A DNA stretch of 64,000 nt from Actinopolymorpha singaporensis (GTDB lineage Bacteria > Actinomycetota > Actinomycetes > Propionibacteriales > Actinopolymorphaceae), in the NCBI RefSeq assembly GCF_900104745.1, contig NZ_LT629732.1, forward strand, positions 1,612,001 to 1,676,000, read 5' to 3'. How positions within the stretch are numbered: the stretch's first letter is position 1; the number at the start of each line of letters is the position of its first letter. A program made the position numbers and the translations under genes. Positions 35,508 through 50,788 of the stretch are shown here, in pieces. The notes beneath the pieces are model-generated. The model was not told the origin of the DNA. It saw only the letters and a program-made list of their open reading frames with translations, and did not search any database.

Positions 35508-35735
35508 TCTGCGTGACCTGAGGAACGCCCGGCGGCGGGTCGTCCAGGCTTCGGCGACCTCGTCGAGTCCGACTCCGGACTTCTGCTGCCATCTGTGCCC
35601 AGTGACCGAGAGGGTGGCGGGGCGGACCTGGGAACATTGACACGATTCGCAGCAGCGACGAAGCGCGCCGGTGTGGAGCCGGCAGGGCGGTCCTCGCCCC
35701 GAACATGATCAAGACCAGCAGCAAGGATGATCTAC

Positions 35736-36956
35736 ATGAAGATCGGCGTCATCGGTACGGGGCAGTTCGCCCGCAGTTTCATCTCGTTGTGGCAGAAGCA
35801 TCCCGACGTCGAGGCGGTGTACGCCTGCGACGTCGTTCCGGAGCGTGCAAAGGAGCACCAGGAGAAGTACGACCTGGCCGGCATCTTCAACGATGCCGAG
35901 GAGATGCTGGCATCCGACGAGGTGGACTCGGTCGCTGTCATGACGCAGCGCTGGACCCACGGCCCGTTGGTGCTGCAGGCGCTGGAGGCGGGCAAGAACG
36001 TCTACTCCGCGGTGCCGATGGCCATCTCGGTCGACGAGATCAAGGCGATCATCGACAAGGTCACCGAGACCGGCCTGATCTACATGATGGGCGAGACCAG
36101 CTACTACAACCCCGCCGTCGTCTGGGCCCGCGGCAAGGTCGCCGAAGGTGCGTTCGGGCGGGTGTTCTACTCCGAGGGCGACTACATCCACGACATGGAC
36201 AACGGCTTCTACGCCGCCTACCAGTACAGCGGCGGCGATGACTGGAAGAGGACCGCCAGCTACCCGCCCATGCTCTACCCGACGCACGCGATCGGCGGTG
36301 TCCTCGGCGCGCTGCCGACGTACGCCACCAGCGTCAGCTGCATCGGCATCAAGGACGACCGCGGGGATGGCGTCTTCGACAAGAACGTCTCGCTGTGGGG
36401 CAACGACTTCTCGAACATGAGCGCGTTGTTCCACCTCGCCGACGGCGGCGCGATGCGCACCAACGAGTTCCGCCGGGTCGGTTACTGGCAGGGACACGAG
36501 TCCCGGTTCCGCTTCTACGGCACCGAGTCGGTGATGGAGCAGACCGGTCACGGCGCCACCTGGAGCATCAAGACCGAGGGCGAGGACTACCGCAAGGGCG
36601 ACACCCTCGACATCAGTGACCTCTTCTACACCCGCGGCACCCAGGTGCCCGAGGGCTTCGGGGACGTCGACCCGGCGCTGATGCAGAGCTTCGCCTCCGG
36701 AAACGCCAAGGTGCAGGACCGCAGCCGGCTGCCCAAGGAGTTCGAGGGTGCGCACAACGGGCACGAGGGCTCGCACCACTTCCTGGCCGACGACTTCGTC
36801 CGGGCGGTGACGACCAAGACGCAGCCGCCGGTGAATGCCTGGAAGGCGGCCAGGTTCACGCTGCCGGGCGTGATCGCGCTCGAGTCGGCGCGCCAGGACG
36901 GCGCCCGGCTGCCGATTCCGGACTTCGGAGACGGCCCCGAGAACCCCGCCTGGTAA
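35736..36956 (+). CDS. Gfo/Idh/MocA family oxidoreductase
   Basis: 406 residues. The N-terminal Rossmann fold reads MKIGVIGTGQFARSFISLWQ, then SVAVMTQRWTHGPLVLQALE and GKNVYSAVPMAI, where EKP is usual in the family and is replaced here by SAVP. A C-terminal alpha/beta domain holds MGETSYYNPAVVWARGKVAEG. These enzymes oxidise or reduce sugars or sugar acids using NAD(P). CAAGGA is 8 bases before ATG 35736; an in-frame ATG at 35727 lies inside that site and is less likely. Confidence 0.9.
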   Translation: MKIGVIGTGQFARSFISLWQKHPDVEAVYACDVVPERAKEHQEKYDLAGIFNDAEEMLASDEVDSVAVMTQRWTHGPLVLQALEAGKNVYSAVPMAISVDEIKAIIDKVTETGLIYMMGETSYYNPAVVWARGKVAEGAFGRVFYSEGDYIHDMDNGFYAAYQYSGGDDWKRTASYPPMLYPTHAIGGVLGALPTYATSVSCIGIKDDRGDGVFDKNVSLWGNDFSNMSALFHLADGGAMRTNEFRRVGYWQGHESRFRFYGTESVMEQTGHGATWSIKTEGEDYRKGDTLDISDLFYTRGTQVPEGFGDVDPALMQSFASGNAKVQDRSRLPKEFEGAHNGHEGSHHFLADDFVRAVTTKTQPPVNAWKAARFTLPGVIALESARQDGARLPIPDFGDGPENPAW

Positions 36957-38545: not shown

Positions 38546-41500
38546 TCAGTGCCCTTCGTCGTCCCTGGGTGGGGCGTCGCCGTTGTGGGAGAAGCCGACG
38601 GCCCACAGCGACGGGGCGTTCGCACCGGCTCCAACGGTCAGCTGCACCCTGTACTGCAGGTACCGCGACGCGCCGCTGATCCGTCCGTTGGCCGGCACCT
38701 TGGTCCAGTCCGTCCACGTCGTGTCCGGTTTGGCGGTACTGCCGGTCCGCACCTGCAGCGACGCCGTGGCGCCCTTCGGGATGGTGCAGTCCCAGATCGC
38801 CCGATCCCAGACGACCATTGCCTGGGTGTCCAGCAAACCGGAGACGAAGGTGCCGGACCTCGCCGTGCGCGAGTCACCGGACAGAGTGACCCGGCCGAGC
38901 GGATCCTGGTCGTCGACGGACACGTCTCCGTTCAGCGAGCCCCGCCTGAACGTCGGCGTACTCTGCTCGCTGACGCCCCAGGCCGGTGTGACGAACTTCA
39001 GGGTGCCGGACTGGCCCGCGTTTCCTGCGGCGTCGGTCGACACGCCGTTGATCAGGTACGTCCTGCCCGGGTCCAGCCCGGTCAGCACCAGCGCGTGGTC
39101 GGTGGACAGCTCGTCTGCCCGGGCAACCGGTTCCAGGTCCGACTTGCCGGTGCCCGCCTGGACCACCGCGGTCGACGGTTCGTCGGTGGCCCATCGGACG
39201 GTCGCGGTCCCGCCGGGCAGGGCCGTCACTCGTGCGGCCGTGACCTTGGGAGCCCTGGTGTCCCTCGTCGGCGTGGTGAAGGTGGCCGGCGCCTTGTCCG
39301 CCGCCGGGTAGGTGCCCGACCGACCATTCAGGTCGGTCGAGGTGACCCGGTAGTAGTACTTGGTACCGGGCTTCAGCCGCCGGGCCTCGATCCGGTGATT
39401 CCGCGTGGCGTCACCGAGCTTGATCTTGGTTTTCAGCGAGGTCGGGGACGTGCCGATCGCGACCTCGCTGGTCGCCACCCGGGATGTCGTCCAGGTTGCC
39501 GTGGCGCTCGGCTCGGCGGTCGCCGCGCCGTTGTCGACCGTCAGGGCGGAGAACGTCATCGCGCCGGCGGGCGGCGCCGAGTAGGTGGCCGTGTAGGAGC
39601 CGTCGGTCGCGTGGAACGAGGCGTACTCCAGGCCCTTGACTGTGCTGGTGGTGTAGTCGACTCCGCTGCCGGCCATCGACAGCCCGCTCAGTACTGACCC
39701 TCCGGGGCCCGCGGTCGGCAGCATTCCGGTCAGCCCGTTAGAGCCGGTGCCGCCGGTGATGCTGAAGCTCAGCGTGTTGCCGTTCCAGACGACCTTCCCG
39801 AACGCGGAGGCGTTGCGTCCGTCCAGCCAGGTGAGGAGCTGCTTGCCGCTGATGATCGGCACCTCGTGGCTGCGCGCCGAGGAGATCAGCGCGTCGCTTT
39901 GCGGCTCGGTCGGAAGGTCGGTGTGCATGTTGGCGGTGAAGGCGCCGTAGTACCCCAGGGGACCTGTTGCGTTGGTCAGCAGCTGGTCGACCGTGAACGG
40001 ATAGGTCTGGTCCGACTCGTCGGTCATCTGGGTGACCGCCTGGTAGACGTCGATCGTGCTTCCGTCGGTGTCGGCGAACCGCATGGGCATGCCCGATCCC
40101 GACATGAAACCCGGCCGGTCCTGAACCCAGCTACCCGGGAAGTAGTAGTAGTTGGTGTCCAACCGCATGCCGTTGGCCAGCTCGGTCTTCGGTTGCGTCG
40201 CCCAGTCGCTCCACGGGATGCAGTGAGTTCGGTTGGTGACGGGTGACGGGACATCCGGATAGATGCTCCGCCAGACCGACAGGTCGTTGGCGTAGTTGCC
40301 CGCCAGCGACGTTGGCGTGAAGTCGCTGCAGTAGGTCGTCTCGTGAACGCCGACCTCGAAACCCTGGCTGGTGTACGACGCCGCGGCCGAGTTGGTCAGG
40401 CGCGGGGTGTTCGGATAGACGTACGAGCTGTACCGATAGCAGGTCCAGTCGGCCACGGAACAGTTCGCGGGACTGTTGGCGAGCAGTTGGTCGAAGCGGC
40501 CGGAGGTTCCGCCGTTGCCGTGGTCGTCACCGGTACCGACGATCACAGCATCGAGGCCGCGCGGGAAGTACCAGAACCGTGGCAACGGCATCCTGTCCCG
40601 GTTCATCACCTGGATCAGGTTGGCAAGCAGCCGCTGCTGTTCGTCCGCCTGGGGAATCGCCACCTTGTTCAGGTCGATCCAGTCCGGAGAGCTGCTGGTA
40701 CCGAAGAACATGTCGTCGGATCGTCGCGGCGACAGCTGGTCGCGCTCCTGCCCGGCCCAGGCCCGGTTGCCCTGGCGCATGGCCACGATCGACCGGGGCA
40801 GGTCGTAGGTGAACGCGGCGGCTTCTCCGCCGTTACTGCCGACGCTGTGCAGAGTGACCGCCGGGTTGGTCGTCGCCGTGGCCGCGTCGGTGTACAGCGT
40901 CGCGATCGACTGTGCGCCGGACAGGGCGTAACGGTCGGCCGAGCCATGGAACTGGATCGTGTCGGAAACGATGCCCGAGCCCGGTGCCGTCGCGGTGTCG
41001 ACCTTCAGGTATCCGTCGTCCACCGATCCGCCGGCGGCGGTGAGCCCGAGCAGAGCGGACAGCGTCCCGCTCGGCTTCATCGCGATCAGGTTGCCACCTC
41101 CGTCGACCCAGGCGGACAGGGTCGCTGCCTGGCCGGCGTCGACGGCCACCGCACCGAGCACCACCACGTCGTAGGGGGCCAGGGCCGAAGCCGACAGGGA
41201 CGACACGTCGATCATGCGGAACTCGTTGAGGCCCTCGGTGTGCAGGATCTCGGTGATGTACTTGGAGTACGGGTTCGCCGAGTTCGTGACCACCGCGATC
41301 GGCCCTCCCGGGCCCTGGGCGATGCCCGGCGGTGGAGGTGCACCGGTCGTGAATGACCAACTCGCCGGCGCCATCGTGTTGCCGGCGGCGTCCTTCGCCC
41401 CGCTGACCGAGACCGTGTAGCTCGTCGAGGCCGCCAGCAGGGCGTTCGGGGTCAGGGTCGCCGTCAGGCTCTGGGCGTCGTACCCGAAGGTGGCCGGCAC

Positions 41501-43066
41501 GACATCGCCGTTCGGTCCGGTCAGCGTCATGGTCGCGGCGCTCACGTTTTCCGAGAAGGTCGCCGTGACCGGCGTGGACACCGCGACTCCCGTCGATCCG
41601 CCGACGGGTGCCATGGACACCAACGAGGGGAGCGTCGTGTCGGTGGCGCTGGTGTCGAACACGACGTCGACCCAGTAGTTGGTCGCCTGGAAGCCGTTGG
41701 TCGGGAAGCCGCTGGCGCCGTACTTGTAGAGACCATTCAGTCCGTCGGTCCCGTTGCGAAGGGCGGTCAACGGGCCACGGGACGTCGCGGTGTTCGCGAA
41801 GTAGCTGCTGTTGTTGGCGTACCGGCCGACGGGTGCGTAGTAGGACGCGACGTAGGTCGTTCCGGCAGTCACCGGTACTGGTGAGGCGAAGGTCGCCTGC
41901 TGCCACCCGGTTGCAGTTTCGTCGGTGAAGGTGACCGAGGCGAGCTTCGTGCCGCTCTTGCTCCACAGGCTGCCCACGTGTGTCCCGGTGTTTCTGGAGC
42001 CCTTGTAGAAGCGGACTCCGGTGACGAAACCGTTCTGGCTGGTACGGAACTTCACACCGAGCTCGACCGCAGAGTCGTCCGCGGTTGCCTCGGTGGCCGG
42101 GGTGGTGGTGTTCGGCCACATGGTGCACGGGCAGGGGGACCCGGTCGCGCCGGTGGTGAACGTCCAGGTGATCGGGTCCATGACGTTCCCGGACGAGTCC
42201 TGGGCACCGCTGAGCCTGGCCGTGTACGTGGTCGAGGTGGCCAGTGGTGCGTTGGGCGTGAGGGTGGCCGTCCGCGTTGCCGAGTCGTAGTTCAGCGTTG
42301 CCGGTACGGCGCTCGCGCCGGTCAGAGTGAAGGTGATGCTCGACTGCTGGACGTCCTCACCGAAGGTCGCCGAAACCGGCGTACCGACCGGGACGCCGGT
42401 GGACCCGCCGCCGGGTGCGAAGCCGGTCACCGTCGGCTTGGTGGTGTCGGCCCCGCTGGGACTGAAGACGACGTCGACCCAGTAGTTCGTCGCCTGGTAG
42501 GTGCTGGTGGGAAAGCCGCCACCGGTGCCGTATCGATAGACACCGTTGCCGCCGTCACTGGCGTTCTGCAGGGCGGTCAGCGGGGAGTTCACCTTGCTCC
42601 CGGTGGCGAAGTAGCCGGTGTCGGCCGAATACCGCCCCACCGGTGCGTAGTAGGAAGCGACGTAGGTGGTGTCGGCGGTGACCGTCACCGGGGTGGCGAA
42701 GTTGGCCTGCTGCCAACCTGACGTTGACTCGTCGGTGAACGTCACCGTCGCGAGTCGGGTGCCCGCGGCGTTCCACAGTGAACCGGTGTGCGTGCCGGTG
42801 TTCCCTGTTCCCTTGTAGAACCGGATTCCGGTGACGAACCCGTCCTGGTCGGCGCGGAACTTCACGCCCAGCTCCACCGGGGCGGTGTCCGTGTCGGCGA
42901 GCGTTCCGGGCGTCTGTGTGCCGAAGATCGTGCACGGGCAGGCGGCCGCCCTGGCAGTCTGGGTGGACAGGCTGCCCAGAAGGCCGAGCAGCAAGGTGAT
43001 CGCGAGCACCAGCGCAACCCGGCGCCGCGAAGCACGGGCAGGGTTGCCCCAGGAGGTGACGGACAT
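38546..43066 (-). CDS. Giant secreted multidomain protein with DUF4082 modules and deacetylase-like core
   Basis: 1506 residues. A Sec signal (ALVLAITLLLGLLGSLS) is followed by a DUF4082-like module (about residues 43-190, starting CPCTIFG), a bacterial Ig domain, a second module (about 312-470, starting CPCTMWP) and a second Ig domain. The core (about 580-1100) begins with a ThuA/amidotransferase-like stretch (APYDVVVLGAVAVDAG). It then has IVGTGDDHGNGG and FEVGVHETTYC, which resemble the D-D-H metal site of polysaccharide deacetylases. Two fibronectin-III-like domains (about 1180-1340) and a C-terminal beta domain complete it. It is second in an operon, 19 bases after the DMF-like protein gene. 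Extracellular glycan modification is inferred, not proven. Confidence 0.85.
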   Translation of the reverse strand: MSVTSWGNPARASRRRVALVLAITLLLGLLGSLSTQTARAAACPCTIFGTQTPGTLADTDTAPVELGVKFRADQDGFVTGIRFYKGTGNTGTHTGSLWNAAGTRLATVTFTDESTSGWQQANFATPVTVTADTTYVASYYAPVGRYSADTGYFATGSKVNSPLTALQNASDGGNGVYRYGTGGGFPTSTYQATNYWVDVVFSPSGADTTKPTVTGFAPGGGSTGVPVGTPVSATFGEDVQQSSITFTLTGASAVPATLNYDSATRTATLTPNAPLATSTTYTARLSGAQDSSGNVMDPITWTFTTGATGSPCPCTMWPNTTTPATEATADDSAVELGVKFRTSQNGFVTGVRFYKGSRNTGTHVGSLWSKSGTKLASVTFTDETATGWQQATFASPVPVTAGTTYVASYYAPVGRYANNSSYFANTATSRGPLTALRNGTDGLNGLYKYGASGFPTNGFQATNYWVDVVFDTSATDTTLPSLVSMAPVGGSTGVAVSTPVTATFSENVSAATMTLTGPNGDVVPATFGYDAQSLTATLTPNALLAASTSYTVSVSGAKDAAGNTMAPASWSFTTGAPPPPGIAQGPGGPIAVVTNSANPYSKYITEILHTEGLNEFRMIDVSSLSASALAPYDVVVLGAVAVDAGQAATLSAWVDGGGNLIAMKPSGTLSALLGLTAAGGSVDDGYLKVDTATAPGSGIVSDTIQFHGSADRYALSGAQSIATLYTDAATATTNPAVTLHSVGSNGGEAAAFTYDLPRSIVAMRQGNRAWAGQERDQLSPRRSDDMFFGTSSSPDWIDLNKVAIPQADEQQRLLANLIQVMNRDRMPLPRFWYFPRGLDAVIVGTGDDHGNGGTSGRFDQLLANSPANCSVADWTCYRYSSYVYPNTPRLTNSAAASYTSQGFEVGVHETTYCSDFTPTSLAGNYANDLSVWRSIYPDVPSPVTNRTHCIPWSDWATQPKTELANGMRLDTNYYYFPGSWVQDRPGFMSGSGMPMRFADTDGSTIDVYQAVTQMTDESDQTYPFTVDQLLTNATGPLGYYGAFTANMHTDLPTEPQSDALISSARSHEVPIISGKQLLTWLDGRNASAFGKVVWNGNTLSFSITGGTGSNGLTGMLPTAGPGGSVLSGLSMAGSGVDYTTSTVKGLEYASFHATDGSYTATYSAPPAGAMTFSALTVDNGAATAEPSATATWTTSRVATSEVAIGTSPTSLKTKIKLGDATRNHRIEARRLKPGTKYYYRVTSTDLNGRSGTYPAADKAPATFTTPTRDTRAPKVTAARVTALPGGTATVRWATDEPSTAVVQAGTGKSDLEPVARADELSTDHALVLTGLDPGRTYLINGVSTDAAGNAGQSGTLKFVTPAWGVSEQSTPTFRRGSLNGDVSVDDQDPLGRVTLSGDSRTARSGTFVSGLLDTQAMVVWDRAIWDCTIPKGATASLQVRTGSTAKPDTTWTDWTKVPANGRISGASRYLQYRVQLTVGAGANAPSLWAVGFSHNGDAPPRDDEGH

Positions 43067-43085
43067 CGAGTTCCCCCGGCTCTTT

Positions 43086-46000
43086 TCAGTTTGTGGTGAA
43101 GACCACGTCGACCCAGTAGTTGCTGGACCGGTAGCTGTCATTCGGATATCCGCTGGCGCCGTAGCGATAGACACCGTTGGAGCCGTCGGTGCCGTTCTTC
43201 AGGGCCGTCAGCGGTCCTCGTGTCGTCGCGGATGCGAAGTAGTTCTCGTCGACGGAGTAGTGGCCCGCGGTCGTGAAGTACGACGCGACGTAGGTGGTGT
43301 TCGCCGAGACGGACACCGGGGTGGCGAAGTTGACCTGCTGCCATCCGCTACCGGACTCACCGGTGAAGGTGGCCGTCGCGAGCCTGGTGCCGGTCCGGCT
43401 CCAGAGAGTTCCGGTGTGGGTGCCGGTGTTCGTCGCCGACTTGTAGAACCGGATTGCGGAGATGAACCCTGCCTGGCTGGTGCGGAACTTCACGCCCAAC
43501 TCGATCGCCCCCGAGTCGGGGTCGGCCGGCGTCGCCGGAGTCGCGGTGCCGGCCCAGATCGAGCAGGGGCAACCACTGCTTGACGGCGCCGCCGTGGTGA
43601 AGGTCCAGCTGTCCTGGCTCATCGGGTTGCCCGCGGCGTCCTTGGCGCCGGACACCGTCACCGTGTAGGAGGTGCTGTTGGCCAGTGCGGTACTGGGCGT
43701 GAAGGTGACCGTCCCGGACGTGGCGTTGTACGACGTGGTCCCGGCCACAGCGGTCCCGTTCGCCGGGGCGACGCTGACCCGAGCGGTCGAGTCCTGGATC
43801 GGCTCGCTGAAGGTGGCCGTCACCGTGGTGCCGGTGGCGACGTTCGACGCGCCCGCCGCCGGGGTGCGCGCCGTGATCGCCGGCGGGGTGGTGTCCGAAG
43901 TGCCGCCGCTGCCTCCACCACCGTCGTCGAAGACCACGTCCACCCAGTAGTTGGTCGACCGGTATCCCTGGTTGGGGAAACTGCCGCCGCCGTAGCTGTA
44001 GGCCCCGTCAGGGCCGTCGGCGTTGTCCGCCAGCGCGGTCAGCGGCCCGCGGGCCACAGCCGTACCGAAGTAGTTCTCCGAGATCGCGTAGTGACCGTTC
44101 GGCGCGTAGTACGACGCTACGTAGGTGGTGTCGGCGGCGACGGTCACCGGGTTCTCGAAACTGGCTTCCTGCCAGCCCGAGGCGGACTCGCCGCTGAAGG
44201 TCACCGACGCCAGCTTGGCCCCGGCGGAGGTCCACAGTGATCCCACGTGGGTGCCGGTGTTCCCCGCGCCCTTGTAGAACCGGATGCCGGTGATGGACCC
44301 GGCCTTGACCGTACGGAACCTGACGCCGACCTCGACTGCGGCGGAGTCGGACTCTGCTGCCACGGCCGGCACCGCGGAACTCGGCCAGATGGTGCACGGG
44401 CAGGTCGCCGGAGGTGGAGACCCGTCGCCGATGGTCACCGTGCGCGCCGGAGCAGGCGTCTCCATCCGTGCACTGTCGTCGGTTGCCCTGGCCATCACCG
44501 CAAGGTCGGTGTTGACAGTCGGCGTGAACGTGTACGACCAGGACCCGCGGCCGGTAGCGGGGTGCCAGGACACGCCGCCGTCGACGGAGACCTCGACTCC
44601 CGCGACGACGCCGCCACCGGTATCGGTGGCGGTGCCGCTGATGGTGAGCGGCCGGCCGACCGGTTCGGTCGCACCGACAGCCGGTGAGGTGATGGTCGTA
44701 CGGGGTGGCGTGGTGTCGGCGGACTCGGTGGCCGCGACAAGCCCGGTCTGCAACGTCGCCGGTTGGGCGCTCATGTCGGCGAGGAGGTTGACGGTTGCCT
44801 GCCTGACCGCGGTGTCGGACGTGGCGCCCGAGACATCACTCCAGTGGGTGTCGTCCAGACCCCATGACCATTGGATAGTTCCGGCGCCGAACACCAGCGC
44901 GCCGCTGCGTGCGCGGTACAGCGAGAGGTGGTGGGTGGCGGTGCCCGACGCATACGTCGAGCCGTAGTCCTGCAGGTAGCTGGGGACGTTCTGGGTGTCG
45001 GTGGAGAGATGGATCAGACCGTCGGGCTGGGATCCGTTGTCCGGGCTCTCGTCCCACTCGTAGCCGAGAATCCCGTGCCCCAGCGTCGTGGTGGCGGTGG
45101 AGGCGAGGTTGGCCACCCTGGTGTTGCGCCAGAACCGCAACCTGGCGTCGGCGCCGCCGACGTGCATGTCGGTGGCGCAACAGTTGACCGTGAACATCGT
45201 GCCGCTGAGGCTGTTCTCCGGCCGGCCGCCGTCAGCGGGCGGGCTGAACCGCGGGTCGCGCCAGGTGCCGGTCCACACCGTGGGGTCGAGCGGGTCGATC
45301 GTCGCGTTGGCGTGGGTTTCCTTGTAGGTGACCAGCGTCCGGTGGTCGTTCTCGTACCGCGTCTTCCAGAAGATCTCGTTGCCGCTGAAGAACGCCAGGT
45401 TCACGCCGGCGTCGCGGGCCGCCTCGACGTTCGTGCGCTGCTGGCCCGACCAGTACTCGTCGTGGCCCACCGACATGAAGACCTTGTGCTGCTTGATCAG
45501 CGAGCCGTACCGGTCGGTGTCCACGCCGGACTCGTAGCTCACGTCGTACCCGTTGGCCTCGATGAAACGGACCATCGGGTACTCGGCGCTCCACACGAAG
45601 TCGTGGAAGGTGTCACCGCTGTTGGTGTTGAACGGGCGGTTGTAGCTGACCTTGTAGGCGCGGTTGGCGGGGCTGCCGACGTAGAGGCTGTTGCCGCCGT
45701 ACTTGTTGTACGCCTGCCAGGTGGTGTCGGAGGTCTGGAAGTACAGGTCGGAGTGGCTCGCGTCGTCGCGGACCACGAACACGATGTGGCCGCGGGTCGT
45801 GCCGGATTTCAGTTCGGCGAAGTAGATGCCGGACACCGCGGTCGTCGGTACGGCCCAGGTCGCACTGGTCGACCAGTTGCCGCAGTCGATCAGTCCGGTC
45901 GAGGTGTCCTTGTTGCAGTCGGGCTGGTCGGTCGGCGCGACGTTCGCGATGCTCGTGACCTTCCGGGCGCCCGCGCCGCCGTAGTAGCCCATCCGGTAGA

Positions 46001-46307
46001 TGTTGATCGTGTAGGTCAGTGCGGTGTCGACCTTGAACCCGATGGTCGAGCCGCGGTTCACGCTGATGTCGGTGGAGAAGCCCTGCAGCGCCGGGCTGTC
46101 GGGACTCGACACGTCCCAGTCGGTCGAGCCCGCCTGGGTGTTCTCGCAGGCGACGGGATTGAGCACCGGCGGGTCGCACGGTGCGGCGGCCGCTCGCGGC
46201 GTCGAGAGGAAGAGCAGCGATGCCACGCCGAGACACATCGCGAGTAGCAGGGACACCGCACGATGGCGTGGGCCACCGAGCGCAGGCGACAACGACCGGA
46301 CACGCAC
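43086..46307 (-). CDS. Large secreted N,N-dimethylformamidase-beta-like protein with Ig and DUF4082 modules
   Basis: 1073 residues. A signal peptide (LLLAMCLGVASLLFLSTPRA) leads to a core (about residues 40-520) matching the N,N-dimethylformamidase beta-subunit-like family: VSSPDSPALQGFSTDISVNRG, IYRMGYYGGAGARKV, VFMSVGHDEYWSG and NLAFFSGNEIFWKTRYE. A bacterial Ig domain follows (about 540-620), then two DUF4082-like modules (from CPCTIWP and CPCSIWA) separated by another Ig domain. Export makes true formamidase activity doubtful; many secreted relatives are unassigned. GTG 46307 has GGGAGA upstream. It is the first gene of the pair. Confidence 0.87.
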   Translation of the reverse strand: MRVRSLSPALGGPRHRAVSLLLAMCLGVASLLFLSTPRAAAAPCDPPVLNPVACENTQAGSTDWDVSSPDSPALQGFSTDISVNRGSTIGFKVDTALTYTINIYRMGYYGGAGARKVTSIANVAPTDQPDCNKDTSTGLIDCGNWSTSATWAVPTTAVSGIYFAELKSGTTRGHIVFVVRDDASHSDLYFQTSDTTWQAYNKYGGNSLYVGSPANRAYKVSYNRPFNTNSGDTFHDFVWSAEYPMVRFIEANGYDVSYESGVDTDRYGSLIKQHKVFMSVGHDEYWSGQQRTNVEAARDAGVNLAFFSGNEIFWKTRYENDHRTLVTYKETHANATIDPLDPTVWTGTWRDPRFSPPADGGRPENSLSGTMFTVNCCATDMHVGGADARLRFWRNTRVANLASTATTTLGHGILGYEWDESPDNGSQPDGLIHLSTDTQNVPSYLQDYGSTYASGTATHHLSLYRARSGALVFGAGTIQWSWGLDDTHWSDVSGATSDTAVRQATVNLLADMSAQPATLQTGLVAATESADTTPPRTTITSPAVGATEPVGRPLTISGTATDTGGGVVAGVEVSVDGGVSWHPATGRGSWSYTFTPTVNTDLAVMARATDDSARMETPAPARTVTIGDGSPPPATCPCTIWPSSAVPAVAAESDSAAVEVGVRFRTVKAGSITGIRFYKGAGNTGTHVGSLWTSAGAKLASVTFSGESASGWQEASFENPVTVAADTTYVASYYAPNGHYAISENYFGTAVARGPLTALADNADGPDGAYSYGGGSFPNQGYRSTNYWVDVVFDDGGGGSGGTSDTTPPAITARTPAAGASNVATGTTVTATFSEPIQDSTARVSVAPANGTAVAGTTSYNATSGTVTFTPSTALANSTSYTVTVSGAKDAAGNPMSQDSWTFTTAAPSSSGCPCSIWAGTATPATPADPDSGAIELGVKFRTSQAGFISAIRFYKSATNTGTHTGTLWSRTGTRLATATFTGESGSGWQQVNFATPVSVSANTTYVASYFTTAGHYSVDENYFASATTRGPLTALKNGTDGSNGVYRYGASGYPNDSYRSSNYWVDVVFTTN

Positions 46308-47418: not shown

Positions 47419-49545
47419 CTATCCCACCGTCACGGTGAGGCTTGGTGAGACGTTGGCAAGGTGGTCGGTGTCGGCAGAGCGGTACACCCGGAAGGGCTTC
47501 GACCCCTTCGAAGACGGTTTGTAGCTCACGCTGTAGGTGCTGGAGGAGGAGAGGGTCGCCGACTTCACGGTGTGCCAGGCCCCGGAGTAGTACGCCTGCA
47601 GGAGGACCGTCCCCCCCGCGTGGCTTGGGGCGACCGAGCCCGTGATCGTCAGAGTCTGTCCCAGCAGAATGGAACTCTTGTCCGACGCGGCGGTGACCTT
47701 CTGTGCCACGTTCACTCGTACGACCGGGCTCGTGGCACTCGCATACTGCTCGGACGCGTCCGACAGGAGCCGGAAGTCGCGGGTGGCGCTCGGCTTGATC
47801 GACGCGGTGATCTGGCCGGTCGACGAGGTGGTACCACTCACCAGGGTCTTCCAGGCCGACGAGCCGAGCGAGCGGTACTGCACGTGCACCGGAATCGACG
47901 GCAGCGCGCCGCCCTGGGGGTCGGTCAACCGGCCGCTCATGGTCACGGCGCCGCCGTACGTCAGGCTGGTCGCCGAGGTGGTGAACGACAAGGTGGGGGC
48001 GTAGCTCCCGGGGATCGTCACCACCCGGGCGGAGCTGACGTTGCCGGTCGAGTCGTAGGTGAAAATGCCGACGCTGTACGTACGTCCGGACGCAAGGCCG
48101 GACAGGTCGACGCTGGTGCCGTTACCGGTGTAGGCGAGGTGTCCGGCCGTGGGATCGGTGGGCGGGGCGGAGGTGTCCGGCAGGTATCGCACGACCGTTC
48201 CGGCCCGGTCGGCGTCGGCCGGGTTGGACCAGGTGAGATGCGCGGTGGTGCCACTGGTTCGGGTGGCGGTCGCGTTCGTCACCCGGGCGGGTGCGGTGTA
48301 GTCCGCCCTGGCGCGGTAGCGGAGCCGGCCGTGCAGCGCCGGGGTTCCTTCCTCACAGTGTTGCTCGAACGTGAGATCAAGGCGGTCGAGGGTTCCCGTG
48401 CTCGTGAATCCGACCTGGTCGGCCGTGAAGTCGCCGACGAGCTTGTTGCAGCCACGCCCTTCACCGCTGACGTTCATGCCGGCTCCTGTGCCGTTGAACG
48501 GATAGCGGTGAGCGTCGGGGTAGGTGTTGCCCTGGACGAGAATGTCGCCCTGGGCCGGCACGAAGGTGGCGCCCCACGAGTCGCCGTTGGCCGCGTCGAC
48601 ACCACCACTGACGAGCGTTCTCGAACCCGAGAAGGCCACGATGTCGGTGTCCGTGGTGTAGTGGTAGGTCTTGCCGCCGCCGATGTAGTCGCCACTGTCG
48701 CTCTGCATGGACCAGTCGGTCGTTCCGGCAACTCCCAGTCCGTCGAGCGGCACGCGGATCGTCCTGGCATTGGTCGTGATCCGGAGGACGGCCGTGCGGG
48801 GGCCCGGAGCCTGTGGCGCAAACCGGACGTTGACGAGACAGGACTGGCCTTCGTCGAGGGTCTGACCCGTGCACTCGTCGGTGCGAATCGCGAAGTCCTG
48901 CGGGTTCGCCCCCTCGAGCGCGACGGCGGAGACGGAGCCGGCGGAGGTGCCCCGTTGCCGTACGAGCACGGGAACGACCTTGCTCTGCCCACCCGGATAG
49001 GTGTCCGGCCAGTGCAGCGCGTGCGGCTCGACATCGGTGGAGGCGGTCGGCATGCCGAACCTGATCTCACCGAAGTCGGCCTTCTCGCCACCCTCGCAGT
49101 GATGCTCGTACAGCAGCCACAGCTTGGTGAGTGTGCCTGAGGACCAGGCGATGTCGCGTACCTCGAAGCTGCCGGTCACCTCGTTGCAGCCGCCCGCGAC
49201 CGACATTCCTGGACGACCCGCCTCCTGGAACGGATAGCGCTGCGCGTCGGGATACCAACCCGCGGCCATGGCCGCCTTGTCGGGAGCCTGGAACTCGAAG
49301 TCGTACGACGAACCGCCTCCGCTCACGTCGAGGTTGACCAGGTTGCTGGTGCTCGAGTTGGTCAGCACCGCGTTCGTCTCGTCGAACACGAGGTTCGCGC
49401 CGCTGCCTTCACGGGACAGGGTCACCGACCACGGACCGCTGTAGGCGGCGGCACTGGCACCGCCCTCGAAGACGGCGAGACCGCCGGCAACGACAAGCAA
49501 TCCGATCAGAGACGCAAAGGTTCGGCGACCGCGTCGTACGCGCAT
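47419..49545 (-). CDS. Secreted multidomain protein with duplicated domain, HYDIN-like and Ig domains
   Basis: 708 residues with a signal peptide (TFASLIGLLVVAGGLAVFEG). Residues about 35-170 and 270-410 are repeats of one beta domain, each with YPDA(Q/H)RYPF, a GCN/K motif and a closing EHHCEGG or EQHCEEG strand. Between them lies an ASH/HYDIN-type domain (CTGQTLDEGQSCLVNVRFAPQ). A fibronectin-III-like domain (about 415-510) and two bacterial Ig domains (SLTYGGAVTMSGRLTDPQGG and SILLGQTLTITGSVAPSHAG) follow. No catalytic residues are seen; binding or structural role outside the cell is likely. GGGAGGGGAG precedes ATG 49545. Confidence 0.82.
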   Translation of the reverse strand: MRVRRGRRTFASLIGLLVVAGGLAVFEGGASAAAYSGPWSVTLSREGSGANLVFDETNAVLTNSSTSNLVNLDVSGGGSSYDFEFQAPDKAAMAAGWYPDAQRYPFQEAGRPGMSVAGGCNEVTGSFEVRDIAWSSGTLTKLWLLYEHHCEGGEKADFGEIRFGMPTASTDVEPHALHWPDTYPGGQSKVVPVLVRQRGTSAGSVSAVALEGANPQDFAIRTDECTGQTLDEGQSCLVNVRFAPQAPGPRTAVLRITTNARTIRVPLDGLGVAGTTDWSMQSDSGDYIGGGKTYHYTTDTDIVAFSGSRTLVSGGVDAANGDSWGATFVPAQGDILVQGNTYPDAHRYPFNGTGAGMNVSGEGRGCNKLVGDFTADQVGFTSTGTLDRLDLTFEQHCEEGTPALHGRLRYRARADYTAPARVTNATATRTSGTTAHLTWSNPADADRAGTVVRYLPDTSAPPTDPTAGHLAYTGNGTSVDLSGLASGRTYSVGIFTYDSTGNVSSARVVTIPGSYAPTLSFTTSATSLTYGGAVTMSGRLTDPQGGALPSIPVHVQYRSLGSSAWKTLVSGTTSSTGQITASIKPSATRDFRLLSDASEQYASATSPVVRVNVAQKVTAASDKSSILLGQTLTITGSVAPSHAGGTVLLQAYYSGAWHTVKSATLSSSSTYSVSYKPSSKGSKPFRVYRSADTDHLANVSPSLTVTVG

Positions 49546-49720
49546 CCGTGGGGCTCCCCTCCCATGTGGCGGAGAGAGTGTGGCACAGATGATCTCTGAT
49601 CCGCGAGGGCCCCGACGTCCGGAGTGTGTTTCGACATTTCTCACCTGTTGGCTACCCAGACAGCCGGGTGGCGATCTAGGTTCTGAGGACTCGAGAAGAC
49701 CTGATGATTGCGAGGTGCTC

Positions 49721-50788
49721 ATGTCGCTACGTCATGTGCTGGCAGCATTGGCCGTGCTGCCGGTTGTCGCCGTACCGGTGACCGCGCAGGCCGCCTCCGC
49801 GACGGGACCGGAGGTGTTGCCGCAGAAGACCCACTTCGACCTGCAGGCGCACCGGGGCGGTATCGGGATGACCACCGAGGAGTCGCTGCAGGGGTTCGCC
49901 AAGGCGCTGCGTCTGGGTGTCAGCACCTTGGAGCTGGACACGCACGTCACCAAGGACGAGAAGGTCGTCGTCAACCACGACCGGCAGATCAGTGCCCAGA
50001 AGTGCCGCGACACCGAGCCTGTCACGCCGGGCGATCCGATGTATCCGTACGTCGGCAAGTACATCAAGGACCTGACGCTCGCTCAGATCAAGACCATGGA
50101 CTGCGGATACCAGCAGCTGCCCGGGTTCCCTGAGCAGGAGGTGATCCACGGCTTCCGGATGGTCGAGCTCAAGGACGTGCTGAACCTCGTCAGGAGCTAC
50201 CACGCCGACCAGGTGAAGCTGAACATCGAGACCAAGGTGGAGGCGGGCGCGCCGGAGCAGACCGCGCCACGCGAGTTGTTCGTTCGCCGGGTGTACGAGG
50301 AGATCCACGCCTCCGGAATCGAGGACCAGGTGACCATCCAGTCGTTCGACTGGGGCGCACTGATGGAGATGCACCGGCTCGCGCCGACGTATCCTCTGGT
50401 GGCGTTGACGAACTACGACTTCCTCCAGGTGGGCCAGCCCGGCGCCTCGCCGTGGCTCGGAGGGATCGACGTCGACGACTACGACGGAGACTTCGTGAAG
50501 GCCGCCGACGCTGTCCCTGGCGTCACGGCGCTCTCTCCGGTGTACGGGTTCCCCCAGAACGGAACGATCAGCGACCCCGCGTTCCGCTTCTACGTCAGTG
50601 ACGACATGGTGTCCGAGGCACACGCGCGTGGCCTGAAGGTCGTCCCGTGGACCTGCGACGACCCCGCCACTGTCGAGGCCCTCATGGACATGGGCATCGA
50701 CGGCATCATCACCAACTACCCGAACCACGTCCGACAGATCATGGCCGACCGCGGCATGCGGCTGCCCAAGGCCTACCAACCCCGCTGA
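49721..50788 (+). CDS. Secreted glycerophosphodiester phosphodiesterase
   Basis: 355 residues. A Sec signal peptide (MSLRHVLAALAVLPVVAVP, cleavage after AQA) is followed by the TIM-barrel GDPD signatures: DLQAHRGG, STLELDTHVTKDEKVVVNHDR (metal Glu/Asp and catalytic His) and the C-terminal LKVVPWTCDDPATVEALMDMGIDGIITNYP (two pieces). It should hydrolyse deacylated phospholipid headgroups or teichoic-acid-like phosphodiesters outside the membrane. GAGGTG is just upstream. It is divergent from the secreted multidomain gene, 175 bases away. Confidence 0.94.
   Translation: MSLRHVLAALAVLPVVAVPVTAQAASATGPEVLPQKTHFDLQAHRGGIGMTTEESLQGFAKALRLGVSTLELDTHVTKDEKVVVNHDRQISAQKCRDTEPVTPGDPMYPYVGKYIKDLTLAQIKTMDCGYQQLPGFPEQEVIHGFRMVELKDVLNLVRSYHADQVKLNIETKVEAGAPEQTAPRELFVRRVYEEIHASGIEDQVTIQSFDWGALMEMHRLAPTYPLVALTNYDFLQVGQPGASPWLGGIDVDDYDGDFVKAADAVPGVTALSPVYGFPQNGTISDPAFRFYVSDDMVSEAHARGLKVVPWTCDDPATVEALMDMGIDGIITNYPNHVRQIMADRGMRLPKAYQPR

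Follow-up and report, generated by a model that had tools for sequence, protein, structure and literature searches.

Two exported-looking proteins with unrelated amide hydrolase-like cores and shared DUF4082 modules are encoded by an operon of Actinopolymorpha singaporensis

We analyzed a stretch of 64,000 nucleotides from Actinopolymorpha singaporensis (contig NZ_LT629732.1, positions 1,612,001 to 1,676,000; hereafter the window), in which two adjacent genes encode large proteins that we call ORF1 and ORF2 (for open reading frame). We propose that the products of this operon are a pair of exported enzymes with a single substrate, an extracellular amino-sugar polymer from which both would remove N-acyl groups. 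We put the probability of this proposal at about one half. Each core looks like a known type of enzyme, and de-N-acylation of polysaccharides is known; what is unexpected is the second enzyme. The two proteins and their cores are:

43086..46307, minus strand: ORF1, 1073 amino acids, with DMFA2_C, immunoglobulin-like (Ig) and DUF4082 modules; secreted-looking
44841..46175, minus strand: core of ORF1, residues 45-489, DMFA2_C (from Pfam and a structure model)
38546..43066, minus strand: ORF2, 1506 amino acids, deacetylase-like, with DUF4082 and Ig modules; secreted-looking
39587..41329, minus strand: core of ORF2, residues 580-1160, with a ThuA/GATase-like domain, a deacetylase-like domain and a beta-rich end (from a structure model)

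An earlier reading of this DNA, made from the sequence alone, had described two secreted proteins that carry Ig and DUF4082-like modules around different cores, and had suggested that they share an extracellular target. Its account of the layout was accurate. The stop codon of ORF1 (at 43086) and the ATG of ORF2 (at 43066) are on the minus strand and 19 bases apart. Both kinds of module were found on both proteins by Pfam, and both proteins have Sec-like signals, as judged by eye. As for the unlike cores, the evidence from folds and residues makes them look like two unrelated amide hydrolases.

We begin with ORF1. Its core matches DMFA2_C (PF20254) with 345.5 bits (the cut-off is 27). When a profile of 42 sequences of this core was compared to the PDB, it matched N-acetyl-(R)-beta-phenylalanine acylase (E = 3.6e-17) and the large subunit of dimethylformamidase (E = 1.5e-8). 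The structure model fits the same two enzymes: Z = 27.7 for the acylase (PDB:8i5a; 397 residues aligned, 3.1 Å) and Z = 27.3 for dimethylformamidase (PDB:6lve; 396 residues aligned, 3.1 Å). Among the matches listed, the first from another family has Z = 8.7. Both sequence family and fold place the core of ORF1 with the dimethylformamidase-type amide hydrolases.

The functional residues of dimethylformamidase have counterparts in ORF1. In dimethylformamidase, Y399, Y440, and E521 are the iron ligands, and H519 and N547 are described as essential (PMC7686228). In a sequence alignment, these five residues correspond to Y200, Y209, E284, H282, and N310 of ORF1. All but one of the five are conserved in 42 of 42 sequences, and Y209 is conserved in 41 of 42. 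(The alignment includes 42 of the 46 DMFA2_C matches; left out were L014, two pieces of L068, and L011, which is from the same genome as L039. The sole exception at Y209 is L040, which has Glu there, within a gapped stretch.) Four of the residues lie in two short motifs, both located by alignment:

45681..45719, minus strand: ORF1 WQAYNKYGGNSLY, residues 197-209, which holds Y200 and Y209
45450..45473, minus strand: ORF1 SVGHDEYW, residues 279-286, which holds H282 and E284

With conserved counterparts of the Tyr, Tyr, Glu, His, and Asn, ORF1 has the set of residues that dimethylformamidase uses at its iron site. We predict that ORF1 is an amide hydrolase of the dimethylformamidase type, with a mononuclear iron site formed by two Tyr and one Glu. 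(The genome encodes a second DMFA2_C protein, at about 0.19 Mb, which has 520 amino acids, appears by eye to be a lipoprotein, and retains the Tyr/Tyr and His-x-Glu motifs; L014, 8069-9631, minus strand. DMFA2_C ORFs of 490-620 amino acids are common in the sampled phylum.)

The core of ORF2 has no Pfam family above the cut-off in residues 580-1160, and its comparison to PDB sequences gave no convincing match. Its structure model is very confident (predicted local distance difference test, or pLDDT, of 94.3). The top three Foldseek matches are Agd3 (PDB:6nwz, E = 2.0e-13), PelA (PDB:9cgy, 1.5e-8), and NDST1 (PDB:9f6z, 2.4e-8); beta-galactosidases are close behind, from rank 4 (2.6e-8), and share only part of the model. 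Over the whole length, the root mean square deviation (rmsd) is 12.1 Å for Agd3 (750 columns), 8.9 Å for PelA, and 12.6 Å for NDST1. These large values suggest that the domains agree with those of the three enzymes and that their relative placement differs. Single domains fit better. Using VIA-align (for both cores, we describe the matches listed), the ThuA-like part fits 4jqs (Z = 17.3, 197 residues aligned, 3.1 Å) and the deacetylase-like domain fits the polysaccharide deacetylase 3rxz (Z = 17.6, 222 residues aligned, 3.2 Å). The "deacetylase/ThuA-like" wording of the sequence-only reading is therefore upheld by structure comparison.

A peptidoglycan deacetylase is a further match to the deacetylase-like domain (PDB:3qbu; Z = 17.0, 218 residues aligned, 3.1 Å). 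This would fit a role in remodelling the cell wall, with the core of ORF2 deacetylating peptidoglycan and ORF1 cutting another amide of the wall. But the best matches to the whole core are enzymes for exopolysaccharides and heparan, and sugar-biosynthesis genes adjoin some of the related loci (see below), so we consider a role in the cell wall to be very unlikely.

We then examined the conserved residues of the ORF2 core in an alignment of 77 rows, which leaves out L052, L083 (a partial match), and the distant paralogue L010. D847, H849, H908, C913, R946, C949, R996, H1048, and D1050 are invariant (77 of 77), D848 is conserved in 74 of 77, and H948 is His in 75 and Asp in 2. The first three of the putative ligands form a motif:

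40520..40528, minus strand: ORF2 DDH motif, D847 D848 H849 (from the 77-row alignment)

The HxxxH motif is absent, and none of the 77 sequences has His four residues after H908. Because of this, we do not place the core in CE18, CE21, or CE4. (The lack of a Pfam match also argues against these families: CE4, or Polysacc_deac_1, is not above the cut-off on the ORF2 core, and the distant paralogue scores 18.5 as compared to a cut-off of 23.1.) H948 is a candidate to stand in for the missing second His. It is plausible, as judged from conservation, that the DDH motif and the histidines (D847, D848, H849, H908, and H948) form a metal site, which the sequence-only reading had proposed to check. Unrelated folds without metal geometry would have spoken against that reading. 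The folds do appear to be unrelated (common descent of the two cores was rejected, as a profile comparison gave it a probability of 0.6%), yet each core keeps a conserved set of residues that resemble metal ligands.

Alternatively, one or both cores could have lost catalysis and act as scaffolds that bind a polymer or mediate adhesion. The missing HxxxH would be consistent with this, and modules make up much of both proteins. But the invariance of D847, H849, H908, and H1048 in ORF2, and the conservation of the Tyr/Tyr/Glu/His/Asn set of ORF1 in 41 or 42 of 42 sequences, argue for active enzymes, and we think that dead cores are quite unlikely.

A distant paralogue of the ORF2 core is encoded at about 4.09 Mb in the same genome (L013, 8687-10432, minus strand; 31% identity, 581 amino acids). 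It has no signal sequence, retains the Asp-Asp, His, Arg-x-His-Cys, and His residues, and adjoins genes that resemble Gfo/Idh, amidohydrolase, and sugar transport genes by eye. Separately, a phage origin was rejected, as the ORF2 core has no match in 50,697 phage records.

The two cores are linked across bacteria. We scanned one genome each from 84,980 species for relatives of the ORF2 core; 113 were confirmed, and the best 80 were kept, which lie in 78 distinct loci. (Loci were picked for how closely they match the ORF2 core, and among them are near-copies, namely three Nostocales loci, and several pairs from the same genome, such as L045/L052 and L079/L091.) Of the 78 loci, 25 encode both cores in a single ORF and 17 have DMFA2_C adjoining the ORF2 core on the same strand; no DMFA2_C core was seen in the other 36. 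Some contigs end close to the core, so "absent" often means "not seen." (Gaps between separate genes were measured from stop-to-stop frames. One of the 25, L068, is fused by a fragment only: its DMFA2_C is split over two frames, and we counted it because the last 52 DMFA2_C residues fall in the ORF of the core.) DMFA2_C comes first in 16 of the fusions, including L068, and the ORF2 core comes first in 9. In a quick tree of the ORF2 core, with good support for only 26 of its 74 inner branches, the fused or separate state changed at least six times and the order changed once. The 78 loci span 10 phyla (for the deacetylase half as a whole, at least 10), and the 42 linked loci span seven. The sequence-only reading had proposed to look for co-occurrence in other actinobacterial genomes. 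The system is not mainly actinobacterial, as only 13 of the 78 loci are from Actinomycetota. Even among the unlinked loci, the partner is often in the genome: 35 of the 36 lie in 34 genomes, of which 19 have a DMFA2_C match elsewhere with E ≤ 1e-30, and 18 of these 19 genomes have a relative of the ORF1 core with 56-67% identity.

Could the linkage be due to chance? We sampled 396 genomes of the phylum: 3 have the ORF2 core, 12 have DUF4082 (9 above the cut-off), and 61 have DMFA2_C (59 above the cut-off). At these frequencies, a chance neighbourhood is not a serious explanation, and the presence of both architectures in 42 of 78 loci is far beyond what chance would give. (The distances of the two cores are correlated, with a Mantel r of 0.731 and 0 of 999 permutations as high, but this is inflated by shared species history and we do not use it as evidence.) The recurrence of the pair, set against the 61 of 396 genomes with DMFA2_C, gives good grounds to infer an extracellular target common to both proteins, likely a polymer. 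Rare co-occurrence, which would have spoken against the sequence-only reading, is not what we observe. The two cores, in turn, are better understood as amide hydrolases that differ in fold. The linkage also bears on whether ORF1 is a hydrolase of peptides or small amides that has nothing to do with sugars and is exported along with ORF2 by chance. The relatives of ORF1 with structures are named for dimethylformamide and N-acetyl-beta-phenylalanine, as this would predict, but it is made improbable by the 25 of 78 loci in which one ORF holds both cores (in one case through a fragment only) and by the several switches between the fused and the separate state. The pairing of the two cores is not obligatory. 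In L069 (7599-9554 and 9848-18364) and L073 (8207-18724 and 18787-21720), the ORF2 core is present twice, in adjoining genes.

Besides their cores, the proteins share modules. In ORF1, the Pfam order is DMFA2_C, Big_7, DUF4082, Big_5, DUF4082. ORF2 has two DUF4082, two Big_5, a stretch of about 580 residues with no family, and an Fn3-like domain (the N-terminal domain of purple acid phosphatase). The modules, all from Pfam, are:

44514..44705, minus strand: ORF1 Big_7, Ig-like
43932..44399, minus strand: ORF1 DUF4082, first copy
43593..43895, minus strand: ORF1 Big_5, Ig-like
43101..43568, minus strand: ORF1 DUF4082, second copy
42467..42937, minus strand: ORF2 DUF4082, first copy
41660..42130, minus strand: ORF2 DUF4082, second copy
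41345..41641, minus strand: ORF2 Big_5, Ig-like, the better of two
39311..39514, minus strand: ORF2 Fn3-like domain (purple acid phosphatase N-terminal model)

No DUF4082 copies were found in the 6.4-Mb genome other than the four of the operon. Identity is 58-66% among the four and 84-90% between each of them and its counterpart in Actinopolymorpha rutila. DUF4082 lies within the ORF of the ORF2 core in 62 of the 78 loci. In another protein (L096, 4300-7647), DUF4082 is joined to a GDSL acylhydrolase and Fn3 domains, and by eye, glycosyltransferase-like genes adjoin it. This suggests that DUF4082 is a general module of surface enzymes that remove acyl groups. Also, the PHR model is above its cut-off on the DUF4082 stretch of another protein (L093, 6630-12884, minus strand; 39.2 bits, cut-off 23.6), which is a lead to the fold of DUF4082.

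The genes near some of the 78 loci point to a polymer. We searched the fetched flanks with seeds for ten types of sugar genes and listed matches with E of 1e-12 or better. (We named the seeds from L012, L093, L094, L096, and L097 by eye and used Pfam to check those from L038, L065, and L091.) At least one seed matches in 22 of the 78 loci, and three or more match in 15, which come from seven phyla; 11 of these 15 are linked loci. The types include DegT (16 of 78 loci), epimerase (14), Gfo/Idh (13), hexapeptide acyltransferase (10), and sugar transferase (9). An acyltransferase, a dehydrogenase, and an aminotransferase recur together in Methylobacter, Burkholderiales, Rhizobacter, Bryobacterales, a Bacteroidetes genome, and Nostoc. 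As checked with NCBIfam, the genes in L028 and L060 do not reach the curated cut-offs but are near to UDP-GlcNAc 3-dehydrogenase, sugar aminotransferases, and NeuD-type acetyltransferases, and the sugar transferase in L028 is above the cut-off for exopolysaccharide phosphoglycosyltransferases (302.9 versus 295.6 bits). Such acyltransferase, dehydrogenase, and aminotransferase genes make N-acetylated amino sugars, and an N-acetyl on an amino sugar is the kind of group that both cores would remove. In Sinorhizobium meliloti, a homologue of the ORF2 core on pSymB (L099, 13632-15755; 47% identity) is annotated only as an Ig-like domain protein. It is set among rml, Wzz, sugar-transferase, and CpsD genes, and the recurrent set of sugar genes is present. 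A possible place of this homologue in an arabinose polysaccharide cluster was considered without result. Within the same phylum as the window, G382 carries the ORF2 core in an exopolysaccharide-type cluster (L012), and three other DUF4082 proteins are in similar-looking clusters (L093, L094, and L097; genes named by eye).

Alternatively, the pair might target a foreign polymer, such as chitin, plant or host glycans, or the matrix of another microbe, for scavenging or competition. The proteins are secreted-looking and rich in modules, and here, as in 56 of the 78 loci, they are away from sugar-biosynthesis genes; the signal-less paralogue of the ORF2 core (L013) appears by eye to be in a locus for sugar uptake and catabolism. 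But there are no glycoside hydrolases among the ten neighbouring genes that we scanned, and the neighbourhoods that are informative look biosynthetic. Overall, we find a foreign polymer unlikely.

We return to the proposal that the operon de-N-acylates one amino-sugar polymer, which we infer would be the cell's own exopolysaccharide. Both proteins would be exported, given their Sec signals (by eye), and the DUF4082 modules, which may bind glycans, would tether both to the same polymer along with the Ig modules. The core of ORF2 would be a metal-dependent de-N-acetylase in which a metal holds the water, the mechanism proposed for Agd3 and PelA, and the core of ORF1 would, like dimethylformamidase, use iron to cleave another amide. 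What the analysis shows is co-occurrence and fusion, folds in models, and conserved residues that resemble ligands; metal binding, N-deacylase activity on sugars, and glycan binding by DUF4082 are predicted from these. Because the modules would tether the two enzymes together, two kinds of N-acyl group, or groups at two positions, would be removed in one place.

Several observations weigh against this proposal. First, the structural evidence is uneven. The model of the ORF1 core is only of middling confidence (pLDDT of 76.7). For ORF2, the first rows from VIA-align are glycosidases, mainly via the ThuA-like part (for 6tvk, Z = 20.8 with 264 residues at 5.2 Å); Agd3 is only eighth (Z = 17.4, 455 residues aligned), with a poor overall rmsd of 9.7 Å. 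The missing HxxxH also counts here. Second, the parts occur separately. Of the 36 unlinked loci, 12 have at least 5 kb on both sides of the core; 16 of the 78 ORFs with the ORF2 core lack DUF4082; in G085, G189, and G246, DMFA2_C is joined to DUF4082 and the ORF2 core is missing; and G382 carries the ORF2 core and no DMFA2_C match. In plasmid records, the ORF2 core is in 29 (27 from Sinorhizobium) and DMFA2_C is in 164, with Rhizobium leading. Within 14 kb of the pSymB homologue, there is no DMFA2_C and no DUF4082. Third, 56 of the 78 loci have none of the seeded sugar genes nearby, none of the 13 actinobacterial loci is among the 15 sugar-rich ones, and the count of 15 of 78 stands without a base rate for such genes. 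In the window itself, the sugar genes are a single Gfo/Idh gene, on the other strand, and a marginal epimerase (E = 4.5e-7) at the far end, and a fuller sugar cluster of this genome is about 1 Mb from the operon (L108).

A more specific form of the proposal is a two-headed machine for polysaccharide de-N-acylation, guided by DUF4082, in which an iron amide hydrolase is combined with a new clade of HxxxH-less deacetylases that have a rebuilt metal site. This is tentative, and we would sooner bet against it than for it. If true, it would reveal two new carbohydrate-active families at once. We know of no iron amide hydrolase with two Tyr and one Glu that acts on carbohydrates. How biofilm polymers behave, among them galactosaminogalactan and Pel, depends on de-N-acetylation (PMC7229062, PMC12022489). 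If real, another de-N-acylase with a different chemistry, tied to the first in many phyla, would be a new way to tune such polymers, and the DMFA2_C and DUF4082 families, which have no assigned function, would gain a testable role. There are relatives in tractable hosts, namely Sinorhizobium and Methylobacter.

The remaining features of the operon concern gene starts and surroundings. ORF1 starts at a GTG codon, and the ATG of ORF2 at 43066 has a purine-rich, ribosome-binding-like GGGGGAA shortly upstream. (The frame of ORF2 as listed has 1542 amino acids from an upstream GTG; the likely protein has 1506.) GC content at the third codon position is 0.90 in ORF1 and 0.88 in ORF2, and GC content by codon position is consistent with coding. 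These features are:

ORF1 start, minus strand: GTG, preceded by GGGGGGAG, which is purine-rich and ribosome-binding-like
46185..46307, minus strand: ORF1 Sec signal-like N terminus, residues 1-41 (judged by eye)
42944..43066, minus strand: ORF2 Sec signal-like N terminus, residues 1-41 (judged by eye)
35727-36953, plus strand: Gfo/Idh/MocA-family gene, 1.6 kb beyond ORF2 (seed match, E = 2.6e-20)

An RNA switch upstream of ORF1 was rejected, as no Rfam family matches the window at the gathering score; three weak matches below it are near ORF1. A promoter scan found no promoter-like sites, and a terminator scan found 4 terminator-like sites as compared to 3.8 after shuffling. The ten neighbouring genes that were scanned include no glycosyltransferases and no glycosidases. 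The locus of the nearest relative, in Actinopolymorpha rutila (L015), also has one Gfo/Idh match. Elsewhere in the window, at 47419-49722 on the minus strand, is a protein of 767 amino acids with Fn3/Ig domains and an apparent internal repeat; as listed, the 5' end of its ORF overlaps the 5' end of a divergent glycerophosphodiesterase ORF at 49580 (plus strand).

Finally, we compared the pair to known systems. The combination of DMFA2_C, the deacetylase-like core, and DUF4082 was not found under any name in the literature that we searched, in which one paper had DUF4082 as a table entry; this agrees with the sequence-only reading, which knew of no named system. Agd3 from Aspergillus is the founding CE18 de-N-acetylase and has a GATase/ThuA-like CBM87 domain before the deacetylase (PMC7229062). 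The ORF2 core resembles it in having a ThuA/GATase-like domain, a deacetylase barrel, and a beta-rich end, and in the order of its Asp-Asp, His, Arg, and His. Of the CE18 motifs, the Asp-Asp of CM1 is present (D847 in 77 of 77, D848 in 74), but the HxxxH of CM2 is not, as H908 is invariant and a His four residues later is never found. For CM3 and CM4, R996 and H1048 (77 of 77) are 52 residues apart, and R613 and H668 of Agd3 (PMC7229062) are 55 apart, which is a comparison of spacing and not of aligned structures. The core also differs from Agd3 in that the two are just 11% identical over the Foldseek alignment; Agd3 was not among the PDB sequences that a profile search listed up to E = 1; and the ORF2 core is joined to DUF4082 and to an amide hydrolase partner.

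Bacterial homologues of Agd3 in exopolysaccharide operons are said to retain the catalytic motifs CM1 to CM4 of CE18, with CM3 present in most of them, and GH114 is a usual companion (PMC7229062). Like ORF2 and its relatives, they are deacetylases of this build near glycosyltransferases, but no DMFA2_C partner is mentioned in the sections of that paper that we consulted. GH114 was rejected as a regular companion of the ORF2 core: it was found in only 2 of 16 genomes searched, with the distance not mapped. PelA (CE21) is said to use D528, D530, H600, and H604 (PMC12022489); the second His of such a pair is absent from the ORF2 core in 77 of 77 sequences. PelA and the heparan N-deacetylase NDST1 are nevertheless the second and third Foldseek matches to the whole core. 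For ORF1, the large subunit of dimethylformamidase (PDB:6lvb) has the same fold as the core, in which its three iron ligands, His519, and Asn547 have conserved counterparts. But only 400 of its 762 residues correspond to the ORF1 core, with 16% identity, and ORF1 differs in being exported-looking and in having Ig and DUF4082 modules. N-acetyl-(R)-beta-phenylalanine acylase (PDB:8huy and 8i5a) is about 20% identical and acts on an amino acid, but it is the closest solved fold to the ORF1 core and, by its name, it removes an N-acetyl group.

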